Below, piece by piece: positions 1,358 through 5,044 of a stretch of 5,519 nt of DNA (position 1 is the first letter of the stretch; every line of letters begins with the position of its first letter). The notes under the pieces were generated by a model, which worked only from the letters and a program-made list of their open reading frames with translations, did not search any database and was not told where the DNA came from. Made by a program: the position numbers and the translations under genes. The stretch is from Pseudomonadota bacterium (GTDB taxonomy: Bacteria; Pseudomonadota; Alphaproteobacteria; Rhodospirillales; Casp-alpha2): positions 1 through 5,519 of the forward strand of contig JADFNT010000136.1 of NCBI GenBank assembly GCA_022563215.1, given 5' to 3'.

Positions 1358-1399
1358 TAGGGTATTTCCGGTGAACCTGCGTGAACCGGAAATACCCTA
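1358..1399. repeat. Palindromic element B, 15-bp perfect arms, between convergent genes
   Basis: TAGGGTATTTCCGGT (1358-1372) is the exact reverse complement of 1385-1399, separated by 12 bp. Read from either side the element begins TAGGGTATTTCC, and on the minus strand its first three bases are the TAG stop of the methyltransferase gene. It lies between convergent genes and directly follows element A. Such a stem could act as a bidirectional transcription barrier, but neither side has a T-run. It may equally be a mobile palindromic repeat. The palindrome is directly visible; its role is inferred. Confidence 0.7.
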
Positions 1400-2095
1400 G
1401 CCGCCGCCATCCACTTCCAGCACGGCGATGATGTTGGCCGTCCAGACGATGGGCGTGGTGGTGAGAATCCTCGACAGAACCCCATGCAGGCAGTCCTCGG
1501 CCAGGCGCCGGAACGGGCTGCCGCGGCGTTGCGGGAGGAAGGCCCGCGCCTTGTATCCGGCCGCCAGTCCCAACTGCTCCAGGCTTTGCGCCGTATAGGC
1601 GCTTTGGTGGGTGAGGTCGGCGAACTGATGGATGCCGCCCCACGGTGACCCCATGTTAGGCACCCGGACGACGACCAGCCCGCCGGGCCGAAGCACGTCC
1701 TTGATCTTCTTTAGAAGCCTGACCCCTTCGGCGGCCGTGAAATGCTCCAAAACGTCCAGCATCACCACCCGGTCGAAGGGTTCCCCGGCGCCGTCCAGGT
1801 AATCCCAAAGGTCGCCGACGGTCACGTGGGACTCCAGCCCCGGCTCCATGACCCGGACCGCTTCCGGGTCCTGTTCGACGCCGTGAAAGCGGGTGACGCC
1901 CTTGTGATTCAGATAGGACAGGAATTCGCCGGTGCCGGAACCGATTTCGAGAACCGAGGTCCCGGGCCCGCACCGGGCCGGAACCCAGAATTCCCGGTCG
2001 TACCATTTGACGTGCTTGTCCTTCAGCACCGGCGTCTGGTAACGCTTGAAGGCGGCATAGACCTTATAGAAATCCTCGGGCTTTTCGACGGCCAT
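1397..2095 (-). CDS. Class I SAM-dependent methyltransferase (Methyltransf_23-like)
   Basis: A 232-residue protein with the Rossmann-type SAM-binding order. Motif I is VLEIGSGTGEFL (residues 48-59), the acidic residue after strand 2 is E74 in HGVEQDPEAV, DVLEHF follows at 114-119, and LRPGGLVVVRVPN (135-147) is the post-III segment. DLTHQSAYTAQSLEQLGLAAGY (160-181) matches the C-terminal pattern of the Methyltransf_23 group, which includes O- and C-methyltransferases of sugars, quinones and small molecules. The substrate cannot be read from the sequence. The residues around 203-227 are hydrophobic and could touch the membrane. I chose ATG at 2095 because AAAGGGG lies 11 nt upstream and homology-like sequence starts there. 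An in-frame ATG at 2230 would add 45 residues with no recognisable fold and would consume most of the divergent gap. The gene is divergent from an fkbM gene and convergent with secA. Its TAG stop lies within palindrome B. Confidence 0.88.
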   Translation of the reverse strand: MAVEKPEDFYKVYAAFKRYQTPVLKDKHVKWYDREFWVPARCGPGTSVLEIGSGTGEFLSYLNHKGVTRFHGVEQDPEAVRVMEPGLESHVTVGDLWDYLDGAGEPFDRVVMLDVLEHFTAAEGVRLLKKIKDVLRPGGLVVVRVPNMGSPWGGIHQFADLTHQSAYTAQSLEQLGLAAGYKARAFLPQRRGSPFRRLAEDCLHGVLSRILTTTPIVWTANIIAVLEVDGGG

Positions 2096-2106
2096 GTTTT
2101 TTCGTA

Positions 2107-2113
2107 CCCCTTT
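2107..2113 (-). promoter_or_regulatory. Probable ribosome binding site deciding the methyltransferase start
   Basis: On the minus strand AAAGGGG precedes the ATG at 2095 with an 11-nt A-rich spacer. The spacing is slightly long, but this is the best Shine-Dalgarno-like match in the gap and it supports the short start over the ATG at 2230. Confidence 0.4.
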
Positions 2114-2261
2114 GCCGGGAAACCTTATCGAAACGCCGGACGGTTGCAACCATTCCCGGCTTTTAAAGTTGCCGCCGGGCCGGGAAACTAGCGGATGAAA
2201 CGGGCCCAGGGTTCGGGGTAGACTATCCATCCGATTTAACCCTGCCCGATGCCACCGGCCT

Positions 2262-2308: not shown

Positions 2309-3118
2309 ATGACCAAGCTTTTCGCGCGATTCCTGGTGGCCCTCGTCAATCTGGCGACGGGCATCCTAGGCCGATGGCGGAAACTGACCGTCCGCGCCCG
2401 GGTCCACGACGGGCTGGCGCCGCAAACCACCGTCACCGTCAACGGCGTCGCCCTGACCCTGCTGGTCCCCGACCGCACGTCCGTCTATTGGCCCCGGCAC
2501 GGGTTCGACAGCGAGCCCAATACGATCTCCTGGATCGACGGATTCGGTGCCGGTGACGTCTTTTACGACATCGGCGCCAATATCGGCGCCTATACCCTCT
2601 ATGCGGCCAAGGCGCGTTCGGTCCAGGTGGTCGCCTTCGAGCCGAATCCGTTCTCGTACCGGGTGCTGGTCCATAACCTTCACCTCAACGCGGTCACCGA
2701 CCGGGTGTTGGCGCTTTGCCTGGCCGCCGCCGCCGAAACCGGGAACACGCGTCTATCCCTGAACGGCACCGAGGCCGGCTCCGTCGGCAACACCATTTCC
2801 GATGGAGGGCCGATTGGCAACGGCATCGGCCTCCAGGCCCTGGCCTTCCGCCTCGACGATCTTGCGGCGATCGAGGGAATCCCCGCCCCGACCCAGGTCA
2901 AAATAGACGTCGACGGCATCGAGGCGGCGATCCTGGAGGGCGCCAAGTCGCTGCTTTCCGGGCCGGGGGTGAAGTCGGTCCTGATCGAGACGTTGACCCA
3001 TGACAGCGCGGAACAGGCACGGATAACGTCGCTGCTGGGGGAATGCGGGCTCAAGCCCGCCGATCTGCCGGACGACGGCTCCGACAACCGCCTTTTCACC
3101 CGCGTCACCCGCGCCTAG
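2309..3118 (+). CDS. FkbM family methyltransferase
   Basis: A 269-residue SAM-dependent methyltransferase of the FkbM family, whose members O-methylate hydroxyls of polyketides and, very often in bacterial gene clusters, sugars of surface glycans. SAM motif I is FYDIGANIGAYTLYAA (residues 85-100), and motif II with its acidic residue is VVAFEPNPFSYRVLVHNL (107-124). The family segment RLDDL (181-185) is followed by VKIDVDGIEAAILEGA (197-212), close to the usual K-I/M-D-V-E-G-x-E signature with Asp in place of the first Glu. The N-terminus is hydrophobic and basic (FARFLVALVNLATGILGRW, about 5-23), suggesting an amphipathic or membrane-associated helix rather than a cleaved signal. The ATG at 2309 has no Shine-Dalgarno-like sequence. 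The gene is divergent from the other methyltransferase and convergent with the fucose synthase homologue. Together with that neighbour, sugar O-methylation is a reasonable guess, but the substrate is unproven. Confidence 0.9.
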   Translation: MTKLFARFLVALVNLATGILGRWRKLTVRARVHDGLAPQTTVTVNGVALTLLVPDRTSVYWPRHGFDSEPNTISWIDGFGAGDVFYDIGANIGAYTLYAAKARSVQVVAFEPNPFSYRVLVHNLHLNAVTDRVLALCLAAAAETGNTRLSLNGTEAGSVGNTISDGGPIGNGIGLQALAFRLDDLAAIEGIPAPTQVKIDVDGIEAAILEGAKSLLSGPGVKSVLIETLTHDSAEQARITSLLGECGLKPADLPDDGSDNRLFTRVTRA

Positions 3119-3126
3119 GCAACCCG

Positions 3127-4080
3127 TCAGGCGACGTTTTCAAGATACCATTGATAGGCCCTGGCCAGACCGTCCTCGAGGCTTGTCGTTGCCTTCCATC
3201 CCAGCGCCGCGAAGCGGGCCGCGTCCAGGGTCTTGGAAGGCATGCCGTCGGGCTTCGAGGCGTCGAAAACCAATTCGCCCTCGAAGCCAACCACCTTGGC
3301 CACGGTTTCGGCCAGCTCGCGGATGCTGAGCACCGTCCCCGGCCCGATGTTCAACGGCCGATCATCGGAATAGTGCTCCATCAGGAACACCAGGGCGTCG
3401 GCGGTATCGTCGACGTACAGGAATTCCCGCACCGGTTTGCCGCTGCCCCAGACGGTCAGGTCCGGGTGGCCTTCGGACTTTGCCGTATGGGCCTTCACCA
3501 ACAGGGCGCCGACGACATGGGAGTCCTCGGGGTGGTAATTATCGCCGGGACCGTACATGTTGAGAGGCTGGCAGGAAATGAAGTCGCAGCCGTATTGGCG
3601 TCGGTAGGCTTGGCACAGCATGATGCCGGCGATCTTGGCGATGGCCGACATTTCGTTGGTCGGTTCCAGCGGACCCGTCAACAAGCAGTCTTCGGGAGTC
3701 GGTTGTGGCGCTTCGCGGGGATAGACGCAAGCGGCGCTCAGGAACAGGAGCTTTTCGACTCCGCTCCGCCATGCGCCATGGATGATGTTCGATTCGATGG
3801 CCAGGTTGTCATAGATGAATTCCGCCGGCCGGGTGTCGTTGGCCATGATGCCGCCGACGGTGCCGGCGGCCAGGAACACGGCTTCGGGTTTCTCCGCCTC
3901 CATCCAGGCCTCGACCTCGGCCTGGCGGCGCAAATCCAGTTCCTTGCTGGTCGCCTTGAGGATTTTACAATCCTCGGATTGCAGGCGGCGCATCAGGGCC
4001 GAACCGACCATGCCGCCGTGGCCGCTGATCCAGACCCGCTTTCCGGCCAGTGAATAAAGGGGTTTGGCGGCATCAGTCAT
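3127..4080 (-). CDS. GDP-L-fucose synthase homologue (extended SDR) with altered active site
   Basis: A 317-residue protein aligning along its full length with E. coli Fcl/WcaG, which converts GDP-4-keto-6-deoxy-D-mannose to GDP-L-fucose by 3,5-epimerisation then NADPH reduction. Family marks are the dinucleotide loop GHGGMVGSA (20-28), VGGIMANDTRPAEFIYDN (75-92), CVYP (118-121), AIAKIAG (146-152), YGPGDNYHPEDSHV (176-189), WGSGKPVREFLYVDD (211-225) and VFDASKPDGMPSKTLD (271-286). C118 and H188 match the E. coli epimerisation pair C109/H179, and K149 matches K140. The catalytic S107 and Y136 are instead A116 and S145, and the NADPH-phosphate arginines R12 and R36 are G22 and S45 (E. coli numbering from memory). 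A normal fucose synthase is therefore doubtful, so no gene symbol is given. The ATG lies 7 nt after the accA stop, and an in-frame TAA five codons upstream excludes a longer start. No gmd partner is in view. Confidence 0.85.
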   Translation of the reverse strand: MTDAAKPLYSLAGKRVWISGHGGMVGSALMRRLQSEDCKILKATSKELDLRRQAEVEAWMEAEKPEAVFLAAGTVGGIMANDTRPAEFIYDNLAIESNIIHGAWRSGVEKLLFLSAACVYPREAPQPTPEDCLLTGPLEPTNEMSAIAKIAGIMLCQAYRRQYGCDFISCQPLNMYGPGDNYHPEDSHVVGALLVKAHTAKSEGHPDLTVWGSGKPVREFLYVDDTADALVFLMEHYSDDRPLNIGPGTVLSIRELAETVAKVVGFEGELVFDASKPDGMPSKTLDAARFAALGWKATTSLEDGLARAYQWYLENVA

Positions 4081-4087
4081 GGCAAAA

Positions 4088-5044
4088 CTAACTTAACCCC
4101 TTGGAACCCATTTCCAGGTATTTCTCGCGCCGCCGGGCCTTCAACACCCCGCCGTCGATCCCGGCCAGATCGCCAAGCGCGTCCTCGATGGCGCCGCCGA
4201 CGGCGGTAATGGCGGCCTGCTTGTCTCGGTGCGCCCCGCCCAGGGGCTCGGCGATGATCCTGTCGATGACGCCCAGCTTCAACAGATCGTCCGCGGTCAG
4301 CTTCAGGGCCTTGGCGGCGTCTTCGGCCTTGGCGGCGTCGCGCCACAGGATCGAGGCACAGCCTTCCGGCGAAATCACCGAATAAATGGCGTGTTCCAGC
4401 ATCAACACCGTGTTGGCGGCGGTCAGGGCCATGGCCCCGCCGGACCCGCCTTCGCCGATGATGACGCTGATCAGCGGCACCTTGAGGCCGATACAGGTTT
4501 CGACGCTGCGCGCGATGGCTTCCGCCTGGCCGCGGGCTTCGGCGTCGACGCCGGGATAGGCGCCTGGGGTGTCGACCAGGGTGATCACCGGCAGGCCGAA
4601 GCGGTCGCCCAATTTCATCAGCCGTTGCGCCTTGCGGTAGCCTTCGGGCCGGGCCATGCCGAAATTGTGCTTCACGCGGCCGTCGGTATCGGACCCTTTT
4701 TCGGTGCCGATGACGACCAGCGAGGCGCCGTTGAAACGCCCCAGACCGCCGATCACCGCCGGGTCCTCGGCGAACTGCCGGTCGCCGGACAAGGGCGTGA
4801 AGTCCTCGATCAGGGCCGAGACGTAATCGAGGGCATGGGGGCGGTCGTGATGACGGGCCACCTGGGTCTTTTGCCACGGCGTCAGCTTCGTATAGGTTTG
4901 CACCAGAAGCTTGTCGACCTTGGCCTGAAGCTTCGAAACCTCGTCGGCGATATTGACGTCTTCGGACCCGGGCTGGTGGCGAAGCTCCTCGATCTTGCCC
5001 TCAAGCTCGGCGATCGGCTTCTCGAAATCCAGATAGTTATGCAT
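4088..5044 (-). CDS. accA: Acetyl-CoA carboxylase carboxyltransferase subunit alpha
   Basis: AccA forms the carboxyltransferase with AccD. This moves the carboxyl group from biotin carrier protein to acetyl-CoA, giving malonyl-CoA, the committed step of cytosolic fatty acid synthesis. The protein is 318 residues, close to the 319 of E. coli. The N-terminus [20 protein letters not shown] leads into a predicted helical or coiled segment (about 10-50). The crotonase-like core includes [13 protein letters not shown] (63-75), [16 protein letters not shown] (91-106), [20 protein letters not shown] (113-132), [16 protein letters not shown] (158-173), GEGGSGGA (197-204), whose glycine-rich backbone forms the oxyanion pocket, and [16 protein letters not shown] (221-236). 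All expected core motifs look intact. An in-frame TAG three codons before the ATG fixes the start. No Shine-Dalgarno sequence is present; the ATG follows a run of C. The gene lies downstream of a lyase gene, separated by a hairpin, and is followed at 7 nt by the fucose synthase homologue. accD is not in the window. Confidence 0.98.

Follow-up and report, generated by a model that had tools for sequence, protein, structure and literature searches.

The DNA analysed here is a 5,519-nucleotide stretch (the window; contig JADFNT010000136.1 of assembly GCA_022563215.1) from an alphaproteobacterium of the order Rhodospirillales. Its reverse strand encodes a homologue of GDP-L-fucose synthase (GFS; also known as Fcl, WcaG or GMER), a short-chain dehydrogenase/reductase (SDR), in which the Ser and Tyr of the Ser/Thr-Tyr-Lys catalytic triad are replaced and the Cys/His epimerase pair is kept. 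Homologues without both triad residues are referred to below as variants. Residue counts are based on 11 variant rows, among them a chimera (P0005), a fragment (P0006) and a possible mosaic (P0098), and on a reference set of 212 distinct non-variant homologues. Identical sequences, duplicates (L001, L002, L003, L081), a fragment (L082) and a sequence with 39% identity (L115) were dropped before counting. The gene and its key positions are located as follows:

3127..4080, reverse strand: Fcl/GFS-like SDR of 317 amino acids, frame intact, Ser and Tyr of the triad replaced
4015..4017, reverse strand: G22, counterpart of E. coli R12 (R in 180 of 212 non-variants)
3727..3741, reverse strand: L114-S115-A116-A117-C118, with A116 in place of the triad Ser, G115S, and the epimerase Cys118 retained (from alignments)
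3646..3651, reverse strand: M144-S145, with Ser in the catalytic Tyr column (from alignments and a DNA pattern)
3634..3636, reverse strand: K149, the triad Lys, retained (K throughout, in all 212 non-variants and all 11 variants)
3517..3519, reverse strand: H188, the epimerase His, retained (from alignments)
3427..3429, reverse strand: R218, counterpart of E. coli R209, retained, a likely diphosphate contact
3232..3234, reverse strand: K283, retained, adjoining S282 (R in 200 of 212 non-variants)

In the translated frame the two motifs read L114-S115-A116-A117-C118-V119-Y120-P121 and N142-E143-M144-S145-A146-I147-A148-K149. Alignment to the solved E. coli enzyme pairs S107 with A116, S108 with A117, C109 with C118, Y136 with S145, K140 with K149, and H179 with H188. 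The original prediction, made from the sequence of the window, that the triad Ser and Tyr (E. coli S107 and Y136) had become A116 and S145 is exact by this alignment, and its claim that Lys149, Cys118 and His188 persist holds in all 11 variant rows. The predicted fold is intact, with the extended-SDR fold of GFS across the full length, and comparisons of the predicted structure give 52-54% identity to E. coli GDP-fucose synthase. The best NCBIfam match is GDP-L-fucose synthase (NF047922) at 466.4 bits, below the equivalog cut-off of 500. This cut-off is a weak test: four rows that keep Ser/Thr and Tyr score 472-511, and three rows from genomes bearing GDP-mannose 4,6-dehydratase (Gmd), the enzyme that would supply the GFS substrate, score 498-520, one of them below the cut-off.

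The replaced positions are otherwise nearly invariant. Of the 212 non-variants, 211 have Y in the Tyr column and 207 have S or T in the Ser column (116). Variants have A116 in 11 of 11 rows, and position 145 is S in ten and A in one (P0004). No row of either set departs from C118, K149, W211 and R218, and only one of the 212 non-variants lacks His at 188, which all 11 variants have. In the window protein the Cys/His dyad is complete beside a triad reading A116, S145 and K149. The variant majority departs from the relatives at two of the 78 columns conserved at 95% or above, namely 115, where S replaces G, and 145, where S replaces Y. The triad position S/T116 falls outside these two columns and is counted separately, as a third site besides G115S and Y145S. 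Of the further changes that had been cited nearby, T74 and Q171 are normal for the sister clade, M175 is shared with some canonical homologues, and G73 is confined to part of the variant rows and turns up in some non-variants as well.

Among the 120 top-ranking of 8000 scored protein clusters, both Ser/Thr and Tyr are missing in seven (P0001-P0006 and P0098); no intermediate was found among these 120, with no match between 82% and 74% identity. P0027 has Ser at the Tyr place and retains the triad Ser. P0005 is identical to the window protein up to about residue 220 and is unlike it afterwards; it is likely an assembly chimera, and was kept both as one of the 11 variant rows and in the alignment used for the structure model. 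The variant gene was found in four species of one genus, represented by the genome of the window (G000) and by G002, G003 and G008. Of 317 genomes of the order, only these four match a DNA pattern for T-N-E-x-[SA]-A-x-A-K.

Nonsynonymous to synonymous substitution ratios (dN/dS, Nei-Gojobori) of the Fcl-like gene among the four variant species were 0.18, 0.21, 0.25, 0.19, 0.21 and 0.27. The adjacent accA gave 0.21-0.29 in three of the four variant genomes, and the neighbouring fkbM gave 0.30-0.47 in all four. The protein without Ser and Tyr is constrained about as tightly as accA and is under purifying selection. An error of sequencing or assembly, or gene decay, might be suspected in a window drawn from a 397-contig assembly, the more so as P0005 is chimeric and P0098 perhaps so. 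However, the genomes of four species agree in the replacements yet differ at silent sites, clusters P0001 and P0003 represent 48 and 166 member sequences, and dN/dS stays at 0.18-0.27. Recurrence and dN/dS together rule out artefact or decay, the probability of which we regard as negligible; the earlier view that this intact frame, shared by four species, is not decaying is upheld.

Sixteen positions are fixed in the eight core variant rows and absent or below 5% in 116 sister rows. When compared with a list of twelve functional residues, compiled by us with the help of papers, eight of the 16 lie at most one residue from a functional one (P about 4e-5), in agreement with the original prediction that changes gather at the active site. 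With positions 116 and 145 left out, six of 14 lie near functional residues (P about 0.001), and with both whole motifs left out, four of 12 (P about 0.007). E. coli R12, the counterpart of G22, is presumably a contact of the NADP 2'-phosphate. Both arginines to which we ascribe this role are missing in 8 of 11 variant rows, while no basic residue stands at either place in 8 of the 212 non-variants.

Three neighbouring genes are located as follows:

4088..5044, reverse strand: accA, 7 bp upstream of the Fcl-like gene, in a conserved order
2309..3118, forward strand: FkbM-family methyltransferase, convergent; the four variant genomes share this placement, which sister loci L004 and L134 lack
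1397..2230, reverse strand: class I S-adenosylmethionine (SAM) methyltransferase adjoining secA, shared with sister genomes G009 and G019

The order CitE-like gene, accA, Fcl-like gene is common to G004, G009 and G019, and the positional copies in these genomes keep Thr or Ser, plus Tyr. The methyltransferase and secA lie farther along in G009 and G019 (secA of G019 by eye). With nine columns of the trait removed, the tree unites ten of the eleven variant rows with support of 100/100, so the altered motifs mark a conserved clade, a possibility raised at the outset. P0098 is placed elsewhere, with L092 (98/93), which requires two changes on the tree. It looks mosaic, its C-terminal half being nearest to L092 and its N-terminal half not, and a second origin of the variant in P0098 is left open. 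P0098 aside, the loss of Ser and Tyr is derived, in one lineage and at a fixed genomic place, because the positional orthologues behind accA keep Ser/Thr and Tyr. The G115S/S116A pair is also found in another genus, g14 (L107, L109-L112), where Tyr stays.

Several other features of these loci were noted. Between the Fcl-like gene and the conserved methyltransferase lies cargo that varies between species: fkbM in the window, G002 and G003, and fkbM plus a TPR methyltransferase in G008. At the matching place (L002, L133 and L134 compared), the triad-keeping genomes carry a GT2 gene and a radical SAM gene (G009) or a GDSL hydrolase gene (G019). The g14 Fcl-like proteins come from five genomes (91-99% complete) with no Gmd over cut-off, and have unusual residues preceding H188 (EGHVV). 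A 336-codon open frame runs antisense to the Fcl-like gene at 3043-4053 on the forward strand of the window, and also in L139 (6110-7120); it is probably a by-product of GC-rich codon use.

The fucose-pathway frame, in which the gene had been treated as a GDP-L-fucose synthase, is not supported for the window gene. Gmd (TIGR01472) is found over cut-off in 23 of 48 genomes of the family, and 15 of the 29 genomes with an Fcl-like match above 370 bits have it. Within the 41-row clade holding the window gene, Gmd occurs in none of eight genomes, as against 15 of the 21 other genomes with an Fcl-like match. No Gmd over cut-off was found in the four variant genomes G000, G002, G003 and G008 (completeness 74, 92, 86 and 85%), nor in the four genomes with the nearest triad-keeping relatives. 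Among genus members of the eight, the highest-scoring lesser match seen, a related SDR of G002, reaches 139.9 bits, with the cut-off at 415. The completeness of the eight clade genomes is 74-97%, and single absences may reflect assembly gaps, but gaps are unlikely to explain absence in eight of eight. Mannose-1-phosphate guanylyltransferase (TIGR01479) is over cut-off in only six of 10 genomes tested, including G000 and G008 as partial genes, and was not found over cut-off in G002, G003, G004 and G019. In G004 (97% complete), sugar nucleotidyltransferase matches comprise GalU, GlmU, a MurU-like protein, a phosphoenolpyruvate (PEP)-mutase frame and one weak unclassified match. A UDP-glucuronate decarboxylase-like SDR is present in nine of the 10 genomes tested.

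A different set of sugar genes was observed in G010, which has no Gmd. Its cluster (L181, 4514-12828) encodes an ALS-like thiamine diphosphate (ThDP) enzyme, an RfbH-like pyridoxal phosphate (PLP) enzyme, a GalE-like SDR, an Fcl-like protein, a B12 radical SAM protein, and HddC-like and HddA-like proteins. The RfbH-, HddC- and HddA-like genes all score below curated cut-offs (130.7 against 300 for HddC), and the cluster would possibly fit a pathway of GDP-heptose type, branched or deoxy. An HddC-like transferase was recognised by sequence in G000, G005, G008, G009 and G019, and by length and place in G002, that is, in six of the eight Gmd-less clade genomes, with no match in G003 or G004. In G000, G008, G002, G009 and G005 (L182-L186, in that order) the transferase lies close to an RfbH-like PLP gene, which in G002 and G009 follows two genes resembling, by eye, a dehydrogenase E1 pair. 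GDP-heptose is a lead for the substrate of the window protein. On contig C162 of G000 (L135, about 7195-7473) a stretch of N adjoins a 5'-truncated piece of a canonical-type fcl (residues 205-297, 62% identity). A gene for a B12-binding radical SAM protein comes next, and G010 has the same neighbours. A heterodimer with a canonical paralogue was considered and is not supported: G000 has only this truncated piece, and among the matches listed the second-best reach 5e-19 in G002 and 5e-21 in G008, with none for G003.

In GFS, Cys and His are described as performing the epimerisations and Ser/Tyr/Lys the reduction (PMC7949155, PMC12362431). Human GFS Y143F has about 3% of activity left, with hydride transfer limiting (isotope effect 3.9) and the 3'' and 5'' positions showing no such effect, and the activities of C116A and H186A are below detection (PMC12362431). 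By analogy, a protein without Ser and Tyr should lose reduction first, because Y143F hits reduction and C116A and H186A abolish all activity. In the human enzyme, contacts to the GDP beta-phosphate come from Arg215 and Lys282 (PMC12362431); our analysis would equate them with R218 and K283 of the window protein.

The window protein resembles GFS (E. coli 1e6u, human 4b8z) in length, identity and predicted fold, and in keeping the Cys/His pair, the Lys, and the conserved Arg, Trp and Lys. It differs in lacking the triad Ser and Tyr, in G115S, in the lost R12 counterpart, and in a genome with no Gmd found over cut-off. The C. jejuni GDP-heptose C4 reductases MlghC and DdahC (7anc, 7anh) are likewise GFS relatives with part of the original chemistry, and MlghC, an Fcl-family enzyme with Ser107/Phe136/Lys140, also lacks the Tyr (PMC7949155). 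However, they mirror the present case: these are reductases reported to lack epimerase activity, with Ser kept and Y/R or T/H in place of Cys/His, whereas the window protein has lost Ser and Tyr and retains C118 and H188. GDP-mannose 3,5-epimerase (2c59) uses Ser143/Tyr174/Lys178 for oxidation and reduction at C4, together with a Cys145/Lys217 pair (PMC8787198); the places serving this transient oxidation are occupied by A116 and S145 in the window protein. The UDP-GlcNAc 4,6-dehydratases WbpM and PglF are nucleotide-sugar SDRs reported as active without Tyr, but they are dehydratases with a TDK motif and Met at the Tyr place (Mx3K; PMC8987622). The window protein has SAAC, with Ser four residues before the Lys and M144 five before.

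We infer activity, substrate and direction from sequence, and tentatively: the reading we favour is that the window protein may be a reductase-dead enzyme that would only epimerise (or isomerise) a 4-keto nucleotide sugar. Cys118 would abstract the proton adjoining the keto group, His188 would return a proton on the opposite face, and Lys149, released from its usual Tyr partner, would hold the enolate oxygen. With no hydride transfer, NADPH would be unneeded or structural only, and the keto sugar would be made by another enzyme and consumed by yet another. Consistent with such an epimerase, the two changed columns among the 78 conserved ones are the Tyr itself and the neighbour of the Ser, dN/dS is near the accA level, the predicted fold is intact, and most variant rows lack both presumed NADP arginines. 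It is possible, though doubtful, that this represents a natural separation of function, in which a GFS descendant shed its reductase half and became a hydride-free SDR-fold epimerase of a 4-keto nucleotide sugar, outside any fucose pathway, the reverse of MlghC and DdahC. Several observations weigh against the epimerase. The Y143F data show only that epimerisation is non-limiting in a slow mutant, not that it proceeds at wild-type speed, and this mutant still has its Thr. Ser and Tyr, the two residues gone here, are both said to hold the enolate in GDP-mannose 3,5-epimerase (PMC8787198). Lys46, beside the lost Arg, might still bind NADP, and three variant rows are still basic at one NADP place or at both. 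Synonymous divergence (dS) of 0.12-0.17 marks the variant clade as young and makes Cys/His retention weaker evidence than it appears. No source of a 4-keto sugar was found beside the Fcl-like gene.

Sequence by itself cannot decide between an epimerase, an odd reductase and a binding protein, and the latter two compete seriously with the first. It is somewhat unlikely that the protein is still an oxidoreductase on a changed substrate, taking the proton from Lys149, Ser115, Ser145 plus water, or the substrate. Published reports offer precedents in MlghC, which works as a reductase with Phe136 (PMC7949155), in the triad-less SimC7, for which substrate-assisted catalysis is proposed (PMC5039031), in WbpM and PglF (PMC8987622), and in the residual activity of Y143F (PMC12362431). 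Moreover, all 16 rows with A116 also have S115 (five of these keep Tyr), as if the Ser had shifted by one place. MlghC and Y143F, however, retain Ser or Thr, whereas the window protein has neither Ser nor Tyr, and the NADP arginines are lost as described. We consider about equally unlikely a pseudoenzyme that binds a nucleotide sugar or NAD(P) in a regulatory or partner role without catalysis. The two missing triad residues, the variation of the Tyr column inside the group (S, or A in P0004) and the position behind accA with no sugar pathway found beside the gene would suit it; yet the variant majority keeps 76 of the 78 conserved columns, Cys118, His188 and Lys149 are present in 11 of 11 rows, the clade-fixed changes cluster near functional residues, and among the matches listed the four genomes offer no full-length canonical paralogue to regulate, only the fragment in G000. 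An ordinary GDP-L-fucose synthase, slowed but sufficient, is very improbable, with Ser and Tyr gone and no Gmd over cut-off in G000, G002, G003 or G008.

Loss of Ser and Tyr with the epimerase pair kept was not found reported in the open-licence literature searched; SDRs without the Tyr are already known. GFS carries out three steps at one site; in this protein, which is under selection, the residues serving two of the steps are present and two of those serving the third are missing. The variant thus permits a direct test of whether evolution can split the epimerase and reductase halves of an SDR. The clade scores as fucose synthase in genomes where Gmd, the known supplier of the substrate, was not found, so that name is doubtful there. 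The identity of its substrate would contribute a nucleotide-sugar step to uncultured alphaproteobacteria.
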